NCBI RefSeq assembly: GCF_008630635.1
Contig: NZ_CP043869.1
Location: 868,001-932,000 of the forward strand
Origin: Neptunomonas concharum
GTDB taxonomy: Bacteria; Pseudomonadota; Gammaproteobacteria; Pseudomonadales; Balneatricaceae
Length of the DNA stretch: 64,000 bases
Direction: 5' to 3'
The notes beneath the pieces are model-generated. The model was not told the origin of the DNA. It worked only from the letters and a program-made list of their open reading frames with translations, and did no database searches. Shown here piece by piece: positions 54,307 through 63,725 of the stretch (within the stretch, counting starts at the first letter, position 1; every line of letters starts with the position of its first letter). The position numbers and the translations under genes are program-made.

Positions 54307-55473
54307 ATGAGAATAACCATCGCAGGTACCGGCTATGTTGGTTTATCCAATGCTATGTTGCTGGCGCAGCATAATGAAGTGGTCGCGGTGGATATTATCC
54401 CCGAAAAGGTCGCGATGCTTAACAACAAGCAATCGCCTATTGTTGATGCGGAGATCGAAGATTTTCTCGCCAACAAGCCGTTAAACTTTACCGCTACGCT
54501 GGATAAAGCACAGGCTTATCAAGCTGCTGATTATGTGATTATTGCAACGCCTACCGATTACGACCCTGATACCAACTACTTTAATACCCGCTCCGTTGAG
54601 TCGGTGATTAAGGATGTGATGGCCATCAACCCTGATGCGATCATGGTAATTAAGTCTACCGTGCCTGTGGGTTATACGGCTCGTATTAAGCAGGCGTTAG
54701 GTTGCGATAATATTCTCTTCTCCCCTGAGTTTCTCCGTGAAGGGCGGGCGCTTTATGATAATTTGCACCCTTCGCGCATTATTGTGGGGGAGCGCAGCGA
54801 GCGTGCGCGTGTCTTTGCCGATCTTTTGGTACAGGGGGCGGTTAAGCCAGATATTCCGGTGTTGTTTACCGATGCAACCGAGGCCGAGGCCGTTAAGCTG
54901 TTTTCTAACACCTATTTGGCGATGCGTGTGGCATATTTTAATGAGCTAGATAGCTACGCCGAAACCCACGGGCTGGATACTCGCCAGATTATCCAAGGTG
55001 TTGGGTTAGACCCTCGCATTGGTAACCATTATAACAACCCGTCGTTTGGTTACGGTGGTTATTGTTTACCCAAGGATACTAAGCAGTTGCTGGCAAACTT
55101 CCAAGACGTGCCCAGTAACATGGTGCGTGCCATTGTGGATGCTAACACCACCCGTAAAGATTTTATTGCTGATTCGGTGATTCGCCGCCAGCCTAAGGTG
55201 GTGGGGATCTACCGTTTGGTGATGAAGTCGGGCTCCGATAACTTTCGAGCATCGGCTATTCAGGGGATTATGAAGCGTATCAAAGCCAAAGGGATTGAGG
55301 TGATCGTGTATGAGCCGGTATTGGAGGAGGCTAGCTTCTTTAATTCGCGGGTCGAGCGTAACCTTGATCAATTTATGGCCGATGCCGATGTGATTATTGC
55401 TAACCGTCTCTCCTCAGAGCTAGAGGCCGTAGCAGATAAGGTCTACACCCGCGATCTGTTTGGCAGTGATTAG
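54307..55473 (+). CDS. ugd: UDP-glucose 6-dehydrogenase
   Basis: Ugd oxidises UDP-glucose to UDP-glucuronate with two NAD. The 388-residue protein is the short E. coli-type Ugd. It has [27 protein letters not shown] (NAD site, 4-30), KSTVPVGYT near 116, [23 protein letters not shown], Lys197 and Asn201 in [13 protein letters not shown], and the catalytic Cys253 in [16 protein letters not shown]. All key residues are present. GC content returns to the chromosomal level here. It feeds the epimerase at 47200. Confidence 0.97.
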
Positions 55474-59439: not shown

Positions 59440-59796
59440 ATGATATTGGTTGGTCGATGGTTATTGTTTGTGGTGGTTGTAGCGGCTGTGGCCTATGGTC
59501 TCTTTAGGCCACAGCCGCCACCCATGGTCTTTGAACAGTCAGATAAGGTCGGCCACGTTTTGGCTTTTCTTGGGCTGTCGGTATCGTCTCGCTGGGTCTT
59601 TTGGCGGGTTAATGCTTATCTGTTTTGGTCAGTGATGTTGCTGTTAGCGCCATTGCTGGAGTATTTGCAGGGGGTGCTTCGGCCTTCGCGATTTTTTAGC
59701 ATCGAAGATGGCTACGCCAATCTGGTTGGCGTAGCCGTTGGGTTAGTGGTGATGCTGTTATATGACAGGCTTAGCGCCCGATTCCGTAGTAGGTAA
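59440..59796 (+). CDS. VanZ-like small membrane protein
   Basis: The 118-residue protein has three to four membrane segments and VanZ-family features. These are QSDKVGHVLAFLGLSVSSRWVF (the D-K-xx-H motif near 34-38), the LLEYLQGVLRPSRFFSIEDGYANLVGVAVGLVV segment with the conserved Glu near 75, and DxxAN. VanZ proteins are small, of unclear function, and are often seen in polysaccharide loci. Its 3' end overlaps the convergent Ugd-like gene by 26 bp. Two long perfect inverted repeats lie within the coding sequence. Confidence 0.82.
   Translation: MILVGRWLLFVVVVAAVAYGLFRPQPPPMVFEQSDKVGHVLAFLGLSVSSRWVFWRVNAYLFWSVMLLLAPLLEYLQGVLRPSRFFSIEDGYANLVGVAVGLVVMLLYDRLSARFRSR
59482..59518 (+). repeat. Perfect 14-bp inverted repeat in the VanZ-like gene (5' part)
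   Basis: GCGGCTGTGGCCTA (59482-59495) and TAGGCCACAGCCGC (59505-59518) with a nine-base loop. GGTG/CACC pairing can extend it past a small bulge. It starts 42 bases into the coding region. Confidence 0.85.
59710..59736 (+). repeat. Perfect 11-bp inverted repeat in the VanZ-like gene (3' part)
   Basis: GGCTACGCCAA (59710-59720) and TTGGCGTAGCC (59726-59736) with a five-base loop TCTGG. It codes for the conserved DGYANLVGVAVG stretch. Confidence 0.85.
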
Positions 59797-61039
59797 ACCC
59801 GAGGCTTTCGAGTAACTCGCGATCAAAAATGTTTCTTCCATCAATGATGAGCGGGTGTTTCATTTGTGCTAATACGTTTTCGTAGTCGGGTGACCAATAT
59901 TCTGGCCACTCGGTGAGCAGTAATAGGGCATCAGCGTTTTCAAGTGCTTCGTATTTATCCGCACAGGTATGTACTTGCGGGTGTCCGCCGAAGCGTTTGG
60001 CGATATTTTCTAAAGCTTCGGGATCATGGATACGGACGTTGGCCTGTTGAGCAATGAGCGCATTGATGATTTTCAGACTGGGTGCACCATCTAGTGCCGA
60101 GGAACCAGGCTTAAAAGAAGCGCCCCATATCGCAATGTTCAAGTTGTGAATATCACACTCATAATGTCGCCATAATTTTCTAAAAGGTTGCTCTTTTTGT
60201 TTTTCGTTCTCTTTTAGTACCGTGTCTAAAAGGGTAGATTGGCGTTTTTCGGTTAGTAGGTTGGCTAGCCCTTTAATGGTCTGCGAGAACGTGTGGCCGC
60301 CAAATCCGCACCCTGGCGACAAAAAGTGATGCCCAATACGTGGGTCAGCAATCATGCTTTGCCTGACTACATCAATATCAACGTGAAGCTGCTCAGCTAA
60401 GTTTGCCAGTTCGTTTACATACCCTATGCGTAATGCGAGCATACCGGTAACAGCGAGCTTGGCGAATTCTGCTTCTTGTGGGGTCATTAGCAGCATTTGT
60501 TCCATGTTTTGCGTAAAGGGGCGAAGCAGCGCTCGAATCGTCATTAGCCCCCAGTCGTTGGTGCAGCCCAGTGTAATGGATTTTTGCTGGCGAATAGACT
60601 GTAGTGCTGTACCTTCAGATAAGCTTTCAGCCAAGTAAGCGACCACTTGGTCTTTTTCGATATCCAGTAAGGTTTGCAGTTTGTCGGTATAGCCAACACC
60701 AAAATGACTTTGGTTGAGTACAAGCACAGGGCCGTCACATTTTTTAGCGATACGCATAACAACTGATTGTGCTAGCTCATATTCCGCAGGGTTCATGCTG
60801 ATAATATGATTCTGCATTAAAATGGCAGAGCCACTCTGCATCATTTGTAAACGACCCGCTGCAAATTCGCTGTTAACTAGGTCAAGCAGGCCGGGTTCGT
60901 TTTTAATATTACTGCCCATCAGGTCAATAGGCTTTTCTAGCGTGCTATCGTTGACGATATAGACCGTATTGCCCGCTTGGGCAAATGCAGCAGCTGTTAC
61001 CCATGCGGTAAGCTCTTGGCCCCAGATTACAATTTTCAT
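59771..61039 (-). CDS. UDP-glucose/GDP-mannose dehydrogenase-like protein lacking catalytic residues
   Basis: The 422-residue protein has the overall three-part fold of nucleotide-sugar dehydrogenases. The central FAKLAVTGMLALRIGYVNELANLAEQ and SMIADPRIGHHFLSPGCGFGGHTFSQT, and the C-terminal NIAIWGASFKPGSSALDGAPSLKIINAL, show this. Key positions differ. The catalytic Cys of GFGGSCFPKD is Thr250, and the following Lys and Asp are Gln253 and Thr254. The Asn four residues after Lys194 is Thr198, the Arg of the FKPxxDDxR motif is missing, and the N-terminal NAD loop is WGQELTAW, not GxGYVG. It is probably enzymatically inactive and may be regulatory or bind sugar nucleotides. The frame is intact, so it is not a decaying pseudogene. 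Its ATG overlaps the pgi stop by one base. Confidence 0.85.
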   Translation of the reverse strand: MKIVIWGQELTAWVTAAAFAQAGNTVYIVNDSTLEKPIDLMGSNIKNEPGLLDLVNSEFAAGRLQMMQSGSAILMQNHIISMNPAEYELAQSVVMRIAKKCDGPVLVLNQSHFGVGYTDKLQTLLDIEKDQVVAYLAESLSEGTALQSIRQQKSITLGCTNDWGLMTIRALLRPFTQNMEQMLLMTPQEAEFAKLAVTGMLALRIGYVNELANLAEQLHVDIDVVRQSMIADPRIGHHFLSPGCGFGGHTFSQTIKGLANLLTEKRQSTLLDTVLKENEKQKEQPFRKLWRHYECDIHNLNIAIWGASFKPGSSALDGAPSLKIINALIAQQANVRIHDPEALENIAKRFGGHPQVHTCADKYEALENADALLLLTEWPEYWSPDYENVLAQMKHPLIIDGRNIFDRELLESLGFTYYGIGR

Positions 61040-62700
61040 TAGCTTTTCCCCTGTAATCTGTGGATGGTGTTTAATAGTCCATCCGTGGAGCTGTCAAAGT
61101 TGGCTTCTGCCAACGGGTCGTTTAATGGCTGTAGTAAGTTGGTTGCCATCTTCTTACCCAATTCAACCCCCCACTGATCAAATGGGTTGATATCCCAAAT
61201 GACGGATTGCACAAAGACTTTGTGCTCGTATAGGGCTATCAACTGTCCAAAAGAGTAGGGTGTTAACTCATCAACCAGTACGGTAGTACTAGGTTGGTTA
61301 CCATGGTAACGCATATGACGTGGCGCTGAGGTACTGTTATCCAGTACGGAGTCGCCGAGTGCTAGAATACGTGCCTGGGCTAGACAGTTGGCTAGTGTCA
61401 GTGTGTGCTGCTGCTGCAGTTCGCTGTTGCCAGTATCGTGGTAGCGTCGTGCCGGCGCAATAAAGTCACACATAACAGACTCAGTGCCTTGGTGTAGCAG
61501 CTGGTAAAACGCGTGTTGGGCGTTAGGGCCGATCTCCCCCCAGAGAATGGGGCAGGTATGGTAGTCAGTCTTTTCGCCTTGGCGTGTTGTGCTTTTGCCG
61601 TTACTTTCCATCTCCAGCTGTTCCAAGTAAGCTGGCAGGTGCTTTAGGCGGCCGTCATAGGGCAAAATTGCATGGGCATGGATGTTAAGAAAGTTAATAT
61701 TCCAAATGCCTATCATCCCTAGCAGGGTTGGCACGTTTTCTTCAAAAGGGGCGTGGAGGAAGTGTTCATCCATACTGTGTGCGCCGCTTAGCATATCTTT
61801 AAAGCCGTGCATGCCAATCTTTAGGGCGATAGGTAAGCCAATCGCTGACCACATAGAGTAGCGCCCACCGGTCCAATCCCAGAAGTTTAATTGGCTTTTG
61901 GGCGTAATCCCCCATTGGGACATCTTTTCCTGATTCGCCGATACGCCGATAAAGTGACGTCTGTTGAGTAGCTCGTCTCTGACACCGCTGGCTTTTTTGA
62001 GCCACTCCCTTGCCGTGTTGGCGTTGGATAGTGTATCGATGGTGGTAAATGACTTTGAGGAGATAATAAACAGGGTGGTTTCGGGTTTTAAGTTATCCAA
62101 TAAGTCAGCTAGCTGGCTGCCGTCCATCGAGGAGACAAAATGCATCGTTAGCGGGTTGCTGATCAGTGGTTGAAAATCACTGAGCGCTCTGCATGCCATC
62201 ATCGGGCCTAAATCAGATCCGCCAACACCGATATTAACGATGGTATCGATAGGCTGCCCCGAATAGCCGCGCCACTGGCCAGCATGGATGCGCTCGACAA
62301 TTTCAGCCATGTGTTCCAAGTTTTCTTGTACATCGGCAATGATGTTGTGCCCTTCAAGGTATAACGCTTTGTCAGCGGGCTGTCGCAAGGCAGTGTGCAG
62401 GGCAGGCCTATCTTCCGAGGTGTTGATCTTTTCGCCACAGAACAGCTTCTCTATCCAGAGCTTGAGCTGGCAATCGTTGGCCAGTGCTTTCAGGTGCTGA
62501 ATGGTTTCTGTCGTGATACGTTGCTTAGAAAAGTCTAGCATCAGCTCGTCATGTTTGACTGAAAACCGCTCAAAGCGTTGACCATCCTGAGAGAATAGAT
62601 CCCTTAGGTGAGTTTCTTTAAGTGCTTTGGCATGGCTGGATAATGCAATCCAGCCGGGCTGTTGAGTGGGGTGCAAAACGCTAACTCCTTGTGTTTTCAC
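61039..62700 (-). CDS. pgi: Glucose-6-phosphate isomerase
   Basis: Pgi interconverts glucose-6-P and fructose-6-P, linking central carbon flow to UDP-glucose and GDP-mannose. The 553-residue protein has NIGVGGSDLGPMMACRAL near 155, SKSFTTIDTLSNA, the catalytic Glu in MESNGKSTTRQG, the His in NAQHAFYQLLHQGTES, and the C-terminal signature ALYEHKVFVQSVIWDINPFDQWGVELGK. The start is GTG at 62700, overlapping the galU stop by four bases (GTGA). The operon is galU-pgi-Ugd-like. Confidence 0.97.
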   Translation of the reverse strand: MKTQGVSVLHPTQQPGWIALSSHAKALKETHLRDLFSQDGQRFERFSVKHDELMLDFSKQRITTETIQHLKALANDCQLKLWIEKLFCGEKINTSEDRPALHTALRQPADKALYLEGHNIIADVQENLEHMAEIVERIHAGQWRGYSGQPIDTIVNIGVGGSDLGPMMACRALSDFQPLISNPLTMHFVSSMDGSQLADLLDNLKPETTLFIISSKSFTTIDTLSNANTAREWLKKASGVRDELLNRRHFIGVSANQEKMSQWGITPKSQLNFWDWTGGRYSMWSAIGLPIALKIGMHGFKDMLSGAHSMDEHFLHAPFEENVPTLLGMIGIWNINFLNIHAHAILPYDGRLKHLPAYLEQLEMESNGKSTTRQGEKTDYHTCPILWGEIGPNAQHAFYQLLHQGTESVMCDFIAPARRYHDTGNSELQQQHTLTLANCLAQARILALGDSVLDNSTSAPRHMRYHGNQPSTTVLVDELTPYSFGQLIALYEHKVFVQSVIWDINPFDQWGVELGKKMATNLLQPLNDPLAEANFDSSTDGLLNTIHRLQGKS

Positions 62701-63578
62701 ACGATACCATCTAAAAATGCTTTGAACTCAGTGCCGGTTTCTGGGTGATCCAGGCCAAAAATCAGATTGGCTTGCAGGTAACCTAATTTGTTACCGCAAT
62801 CGTATGTTTTTCCTGTCATGCTGTAGGCATGAATGGTCGCTTCTTTGATGAGCTGATCTAATGCATCCGTTAATTGGATTTCACCGCCAGCGCCAGGTTG
62901 CGTTTCTTTTAGCAGTTCCATCACGCGAGCGGGAAGAATATAACGTCCTACAATCGCCTGATTAGAGGGCGCTTCGCTTTGTGGTGGTTTTTCTACCATG
63001 CCTACGATCGTTTGGCTTTGCCCAGCTTCCAGAGGTTTACCTGCACAATCAACCACGCCGTAACGCTCTACATGCTCAAATGGGACCGCTTCAACCATGA
63101 TTTGGGCAGCGCCACTTTGATGGTAGTCGTCAACCATGGCTTTAAAGTCTGTACTGCTATCGGTGTGCGGGTTGTGGATCAACATGTCAGGCAGCATCAC
63201 GGCAAAATCATCTTGTCCAACTACGGGTGCTGCACAAAGTACGGCGTGCCCGAGCCCTAACGGACGCCCTTGCCTTACTGATGTGATAGAAACATCGCTG
63301 GGGAGGATGTCTTTTACAGCCGCCAGTATTTTATCTTTTCCTTTGCGAGCCAGTTCGCTCTCTAGCTCATAATGCGTATCGAAGTGATCTTCAATAGCTG
63401 ACTTGCTGTTGCGTGTGACTAAAATGATCTCTTTGAAACCTGCTTTAACCGCTTCTTCAACGACATGCTGAATGACTGGTTTGTCGACGACCGTTAGCAT
63501 CTCTTTTGGGATTGCTTTACTTGCCGGAAGTACTCGTGTGCCTAGACCTGCAACAGGGATTACGACTTTAGTCAGCAT
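62697..63578 (-). CDS. galU: UTP-glucose-1-phosphate uridylyltransferase
   Basis: GalU makes UDP-glucose, the substrate of ugd and galE. The 293-residue protein has VVIPVAGLGTRVLPASKAIPKEMLTVVDKPVIQHVVEEAV (nucleotide-binding loop and substrate Lys), GLGHAVLCAAPVVG, FAVMLPDML, GMVEKPP and KTYDCGNKLGYLQANL. I chose the ATG at 63578, which lies six bases after AAGG; an in-frame ATG at 63584 is only one base from it. It is the first gene of a three-gene operon. Confidence 0.96.
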   Translation of the reverse strand: MLTKVVIPVAGLGTRVLPASKAIPKEMLTVVDKPVIQHVVEEAVKAGFKEIILVTRNSKSAIEDHFDTHYELESELARKGKDKILAAVKDILPSDVSITSVRQGRPLGLGHAVLCAAPVVGQDDFAVMLPDMLIHNPHTDSSTDFKAMVDDYHQSGAAQIMVEAVPFEHVERYGVVDCAGKPLEAGQSQTIVGMVEKPPQSEAPSNQAIVGRYILPARVMELLKETQPGAGGEIQLTDALDQLIKEATIHAYSMTGKTYDCGNKLGYLQANLIFGLDHPETGTEFKAFLDGIV

Positions 63579-63725
63579 TGACATCCTTAAACTCCAAATT
63601 GTCCTTGAGAGGGGTGATATGGGCGATAAATAGTTGCAAAATATTCTACCCTGAAATTAGTAAATGGGCTAACGATTGGCGGTTTTATTAGGATATAACT
63701 GTTTTTTTTTTGACCAGCATTATAG

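Follow-up and report, generated by a model that had tools for sequence, protein, structure and literature searches.

The galU-pgi locus of Neptunomonas concharum

The window analysed here is a stretch of 64,000 nucleotides from Neptunomonas concharum (NZ_CP043869.1, positions 868,001 to 932,000), and all coordinates are those of the window. At 59771-61039 on the minus strand lies an intact reading frame of 422 aa with an ATG start, encoding a homologue of UDP-glucose dehydrogenase (UGDH) beside pgi and galU. The genes of the locus and the diagnostic codons of this homologue are as follows.

54307-55473, plus strand: canonical Ugd, 388 aa, catalytic Cys present, the only Cys-containing UGDH of the genome by motif
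59771-61039, minus strand: UGDH-family pseudoenzyme, 422 aa, ATG at 61039 and TAA at 59771-59773 (open reading frame, Pfam, AF2 model)
60089-60091, minus strand: Asp317 codon, replacing Arg327 of the FKP...R motif (clade alignment)
60278-60283, minus strand: Gln253-Thr254, replacing Lys263-Asp264 (1dli and clade alignments)
60290-60292, minus strand: Thr250 codon (ACG), replacing catalytic Cys260 (alignments; Cys in none of 82 orthologues)
60446-60448, minus strand: Thr198 codon, replacing active-site Asn208 (1dli and clade alignments)
60458-60460, minus strand: Lys194 codon, equivalent to K204 of S. pyogenes UGDH, kept (98% of the clade)
61004-61021, minus strand: degenerate GxGxxG dinucleotide loop, aa 7-12, G-Q-E-L-T-A (clade alignment)
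61039-62700, minus strand: pgi (glucose-6-phosphate isomerase), GTG start, one base in common with the pseudoenzyme start codon, syntenic in orthologous loci
62697-63584, minus strand: galU (UDP-glucose pyrophosphorylase), overlapping the pgi start

The pgi stop and the pseudoenzyme start overlap by one base in a TAATG junction and the GTG start of pgi overlaps the galU stop, so that the translational coupling to pgi in a galU-pgi operon proposed by the sequence-only reading is real. The same reading had placed a canonical ugd 5 kb away; the gene is nearby and its product keeps the GGYCLPKD motif (approximately 658 bits against Klebsiella Ugd), the gap between the two genes measuring 4.3 kb. 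On the plus strand a small VanZ-like ORF (59440-59796) runs convergently into the pseudoenzyme gene, overlapping its 3′ end by 26 bp; in many relatives, too, a VanZ-like gene adjoins the pseudoenzyme gene, on one strand or the other.

The three-domain dehydrogenase layout claimed for the intact frame was confirmed, with all three Pfam domains located and an AF2 model (pLDDT 86, pTM 0.71) that has the UGDH fold (TM 0.80) and whose top PDB matches are all UDP-glucose dehydrogenases. The protein belongs by fold to the UDP-glucose/GDP-mannose dehydrogenase superfamily (PF03721, PF00984, PF03720), the C-terminal domain UDPG_MGDP_dh_C scoring 96 bits and the central domain 77 bits, both far above cut-off, with the NAD-binding domain PF03721 over residues 1-162 reaching 21 bits, under its cut-off of 27. 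The model is weak in the central, active-site hinge (residues 238-247 below 50 pLDDT) and the UDP pocket is accordingly a predicted one.

Residues lost and retained

Residues were numbered from a full-length alignment of the window Ugd to S. pyogenes UGDH (1dli), together with a family alignment, giving the equivalences (window = 1dli) K194=K204, T198=N208, R234=R244, T250=C260, Q253=K263, T254=D264, K310=K320 and D317=R327. On this numbering every substitution listed from the sequence alone was found, with Lys194 kept. The protein carries Thr250 where a catalytic UDP-glucose 6-dehydrogenase has Cys260 in GGxCxPKD, and lacks both Arg327 and the NAD-binding GxGxxG, which here reads G7-x-E9-x-x-A12 with a shortened 'GTPP' NAD segment. 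The UDP-sugar contacts Lys204, Arg244, Lys320 and C-terminal DGRN of the catalytic enzyme are present and are 98-100% kept in the clade described below.

Retention was tabulated for 129 clade members against 23 TuaD-type sequences, membership being set by the absence of Cys once trees had shown that this absence coincides with the clade, such that the 0% Cys of this table is not independent evidence, as the count of 82 of 82 orthologues without Cys is. On the NAD side, the loop glycines G9 and G12 are kept in 7% and 10% of the clade as against 100% in canonical Ugd, the acidic ribose contact (Asp29-equivalent) and Lys116 are also lost, and the position of Arg327 is D in 69% and E in 14% of the clade as against R in 100% of canonical sequences. 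On the catalytic side Lys263 is almost absent, with Asn208 (22%), Thr118 (29%) and Asp264 (30%) retained in a minority. The UDP-sugar side is kept, with Lys204 at 98%, Arg244, Lys320 and GFGG at 100% and DGRN at 99%, and new residues are fixed specifically in the clade, for example Trp290 and Gly199 (both 100%). The assignment of 1dli residues to NAD or UDP-sugar contact is one that we take from general knowledge of UGDH structures.

Dehydrogenase activity is very unlikely because the NAD and catalytic residues are lost and, judged from these residues, is almost certainly absent. The retained residues suggest that the protein probably still binds a UDP-sugar. Cys244 was considered as an alternative nucleophile and rejected: Acinetobacter members have Val, Ala or Thr there, and canonical GCGYGG proteins also possess this Cys. 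In two relatives (L163 and L164; G107 and G109, genus code g15) position 194 is also changed (EAEFASLA in L164); L163 forms a long branch, and the g15 members may represent a second step of degeneration.

Distribution, gene neighbourhood and selection

Approximately 135 distinct orthologues, spread over several gammaproteobacterial orders, fall into a single clade (SH-aLRT 100) with no catalytic Cys in any member, including sequences from Neptunomonas, Neptuniibacter, Amphritea, Marinobacterium, Nitrincola, Marinospirillum, Cycloclasticus, Alcanivorax, Halopseudomonas, Moraxellaceae and the Gamma 3 endosymbiont of Olavius. The stem of the clade measures 1.1-1.3 changes per site, and the clade lies beside TuaD-type Ugd, all with GGSCFPKD. 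Among the 82 orthologues gathered by similarity alone none has the catalytic Cys, the commonest residues being Asn, His, Ser, Thr and Gly, so that the pattern of loss is far beyond chance; the Cys was also missing in all seven class-level clade members. Most genomes of the same taxonomic family carry an orthologue, 86 of 117 having a match at E < 1e-30, a number that includes a few with the canonical paralogue only. The pseudoenzyme family is ancient, with strong conservation in marine gammaproteobacteria and in almost all Acinetobacter. Outside the main clade, a UGDH homologue at L152 3986-5365 (G405:C7) has Phe for Cys (GGSFFPNDV) and a GTNYTG loop; here the catalytic Cys was lost independently.

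The neighbouring TuaD-type enzymes (BceC 2y0e, 3gg2 and 4a7p; NF047673/TIGR03026) are the best structural matches of the pseudoenzyme, sharing the three-domain fold at approximately 30% full-length identity and the UDP-binding Lys, Arg and DGRN, but the pseudoenzyme forms a separate clade without the catalytic Cys, Asn208, Lys263, Arg327 or the NAD dinucleotide loop. The canonical Ugd of the window (NF011631) belongs to the same superfamily, but retains the Cys, an intact NAD loop and every catalytic residue, and shows only 29% identity over 159 aa.

The sequence-only reading had proposed a search for orthologues beside pgi and galU, and these were found: among 94 loci with full flanks, some from related genomes such that the counts are not independent, one or both genes adjoin the pseudoenzyme gene in 92 (galU and pgi on the same strand in 71, pgi only in 11, galU only in 10, neither in two). 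The window protein is a member of this monophyletic, Cys-less clade linked to galU and/or pgi. With X as the pseudoenzyme gene, the order is galU-pgi-X in loci of the Neptunomonas, Amphritea and Marinobacterium type, galU-X-pgi in those of the Alcanivorax, Halopseudomonas and Acinetobacter types and galU-X-uvrB in Marinospirillum, with neither galU nor pgi beside the gene in the deep loci L147 and L159. An Alcanivorax-type operon (L095 and L096, 6728-10290) has an active ugd, galU, the pseudoenzyme gene and pgi in a row, and is possibly the ancestral neighbourhood of the duplication.

That the gene is maintained, as had been claimed from its open frame, is borne out by the conservation of the substitutions in orthologues and by dN/dS within Neptunomonas, which for pairs with unsaturated dS is 0.033-0.044, as low as for pgi (0.039-0.065) and galU (0.041-0.068) in the same type of pair; in comparisons of the window with its relatives dS has reached saturation, but dN equals that of pgi (0.20). 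Signs of neutral decay, named beforehand as evidence against maintenance, were looked for, and no internal stop was found in any same-family orthologue, on which ground, with the low dN/dS, a recent local pseudogene was rejected. A decaying gene, open by chance or through its coupling to pgi, would be in keeping with an N-terminal domain far more variable than its counterpart in canonical Ugd (mean entropy 2.30 vs 0.94) and with one orthologue in a complete genome (L149, G180:C1:2369482-2370585) that appears frameshifted near residue 367, but conservation persists where pgi does not adjoin the gene, and set against this and the selection data decay is scarcely credible here, and for the whole clade it already stands refuted.

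The proposal that the protein assembles with Ugd fared less well. A non-catalytic subunit tuning active Ugd would be in keeping with the Cys-UGDH motif being present in 72 of 80 genomes that carry the gene, and with canonical ugd, galU and the pseudoenzyme gene being neighbours in L095, L096, L151 and L177. The partner would, however, have to come from one or the other of two unrelated types of Ugd. The motif search may overlook a divergent Ugd in individual genomes, but when the eight genomes lacking the motif were searched by profile, two nearly complete ones (G052 and G475) had no further full-length NDP-sugar dehydrogenase, G340 had contig-end pieces only and the others had full-length matches without the UGDH motif. 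In genus g118, which is taken to be Acinetobacter since sequences named as such fall within it, the pseudoenzyme gene is present in 97 of 99 genomes and the Cys-UGDH motif in only 41 of 99, such that at least 56 genomes of the group keep the gene without the motif. A single obligate Ugd partner was rejected on these grounds. Since the gene persists in genomes without any Ugd, it is independent of active Ugd and assembly with Ugd is unsupported as a general role, making a Ugd subunit quite improbable.

The Acinetobacter capsule-locus ugd and the role of the clade

The gene between galU and pgi in the A. baumannii K locus is a member of the clade and carries GVGFGGENFSHD, with Asn at the Cys position in all 30 Acinetobacter-group sequences inspected. 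This K-locus Ugd (galU-ugd-gpi-gne1-pgm) shares its neighbours with the window protein and 39% identity over 100% of the length, differing in the order galU-X-pgi rather than galU-pgi-X, in Asn rather than Thr at the Cys position and in being published as a UDP-Glc dehydrogenase. One A. baumannii chromosome, filed as a plasmid, encodes this protein and one further NDP-sugar dehydrogenase only. A 3.66 Mb A. baumannii record (L033, NZ_CP077849.1) is filed as a plasmid with chromosomal content including the K locus, and a bacterial capsule locus is present in records named 'Acinetobacter phage MD-2021a' (L032, CAKLQH020000009.1, and hit H10), apparently bacterial contigs misfiled as phage. In A. 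baylyi, the clade gene presumably lies between galU (ACIAD0099) and pgi (ACIAD0101). The ugd of the A. baylyi model paper is ACIAD0072 (PMC2606687), and as this is a different gene the essentiality note there is irrelevant to the clade gene. Among phage-resistant capsule mutants of A. baumannii is an IS insertion in ugd (PMC10904470), which could have a polar effect on gpi; the main text of an A. baumannii Tn-seq paper has no ugd or galU data (PMC10249906).

A working UDP-glucose 6-dehydrogenase is what the K-locus nomenclature lists for this gene, naming its product UDP-D-Glcp dehydrogenase (PMC3628348), and the pseudoenzyme of the window narrowly passes the TIGR03026 cut-off (201 vs 189.8 bits). 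Against this, Cys260, Lys263, the NAD loop and Arg327 are lost in the whole clade, and while every K locus contains galU, ugd, gpi and pgm, capsular D-GlcA tracks ugd2-ugd5, in 24 of these loci (PMC9676051), K71 using ugd4 (PMC11619341). Such an association is what a dead Ugd would lead one to expect, and a working dehydrogenase is very improbable. The prior work that comes closest, by Kasimova et al. in 2018 on Ugd2, may already imply that Ugd is not the GlcA source. An enzyme with altered UDP-sugar chemistry, needing neither NAD nor the Cys, would account for the strong conservation of Lys194, Arg234, Lys310 and Asp232 and of the clade-specific Trp290, Glu279 and His338, but the polar residues conserved are essentially ancestral ones for UDP binding and structure, and the Cys position varies among N, H, S, T, G and A across the clade, indicating that no replacement nucleophile has been fixed. 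We know of no cofactor-independent enzyme in the UGDH fold family, and altered chemistry is unlikely.

The sequence-only suggestion of a pseudoenzyme is thus upheld by the loss of the residues for NAD-dependent oxidation, the retention of those of the UDP-sugar site, conservation beside pgi and galU and strong purifying selection. Our main reading, to which we give a probability of roughly 0.6, is that this clade of dead UGDHs acts as a predicted UDP-sugar-binding regulator of the branch from glucose-6-P to UDP-glucose, the A. baumannii ugd included. The clade would have arisen once from a TuaD-type Ugd, losing its NAD site and the Cys that forms the thiohemiacetal but keeping the residues that hold the UDP-sugar together with the Arg shared across the dimer. 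The protein would bind UDP-glucose or a product of it and may adjust, in a ligand-dependent manner, the enzymes leading from glucose-6-P to UDP-glucose. Gene linkage points to GalU as the likeliest partner, a possible target on which we would not insist, with Pgi ranked next. Such a role would resemble that proposed in enterobacteria for GalF, the closest precedent, a dead paralogue of GalU that in E. coli is reported to interact with GalU and is proposed as its regulator (PMC11796359). Both are dead paralogues of an enzyme of the UDP-glucose node, GalF also being encoded in polysaccharide loci, but GalF belongs to the GalU-paralogue fold family, unrelated to Ugd, and serves as a working analogy only. 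The A. baumannii K-locus 'ugd' would in this scheme encode a regulator and not the source of UDP-glucuronate. A wider formulation, in which UDP-sugar sensors derived from dead UGDH control, throughout the gammaproteobacteria, the supply of UDP-glucose to surface polysaccharides, with the A. baumannii ugd as a sensor making no UDP-glucuronate, is put forward more tentatively.

The clade is a conserved group of pseudoenzymes within the UDP-glucose dehydrogenase family that is currently annotated as active enzyme, and the A. baumannii capsule gene 'ugd' is probably misannotated. No report of lost catalytic residues in this 'ugd' clade was found in the openly accessible papers searched. UDP-glucuronate is assumed to come from this gene both in automatic annotation and in the typing of A. 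baumannii capsules; should the protein be dead, pathway models and sugar-content predictions would have to be corrected, and the second ugd of glucuronate-containing capsules is explained. That nearly all Acinetobacter species keep a pseudoenzyme at the branch point of UDP-glucose hints at an unrecognised control of capsule-precursor supply.
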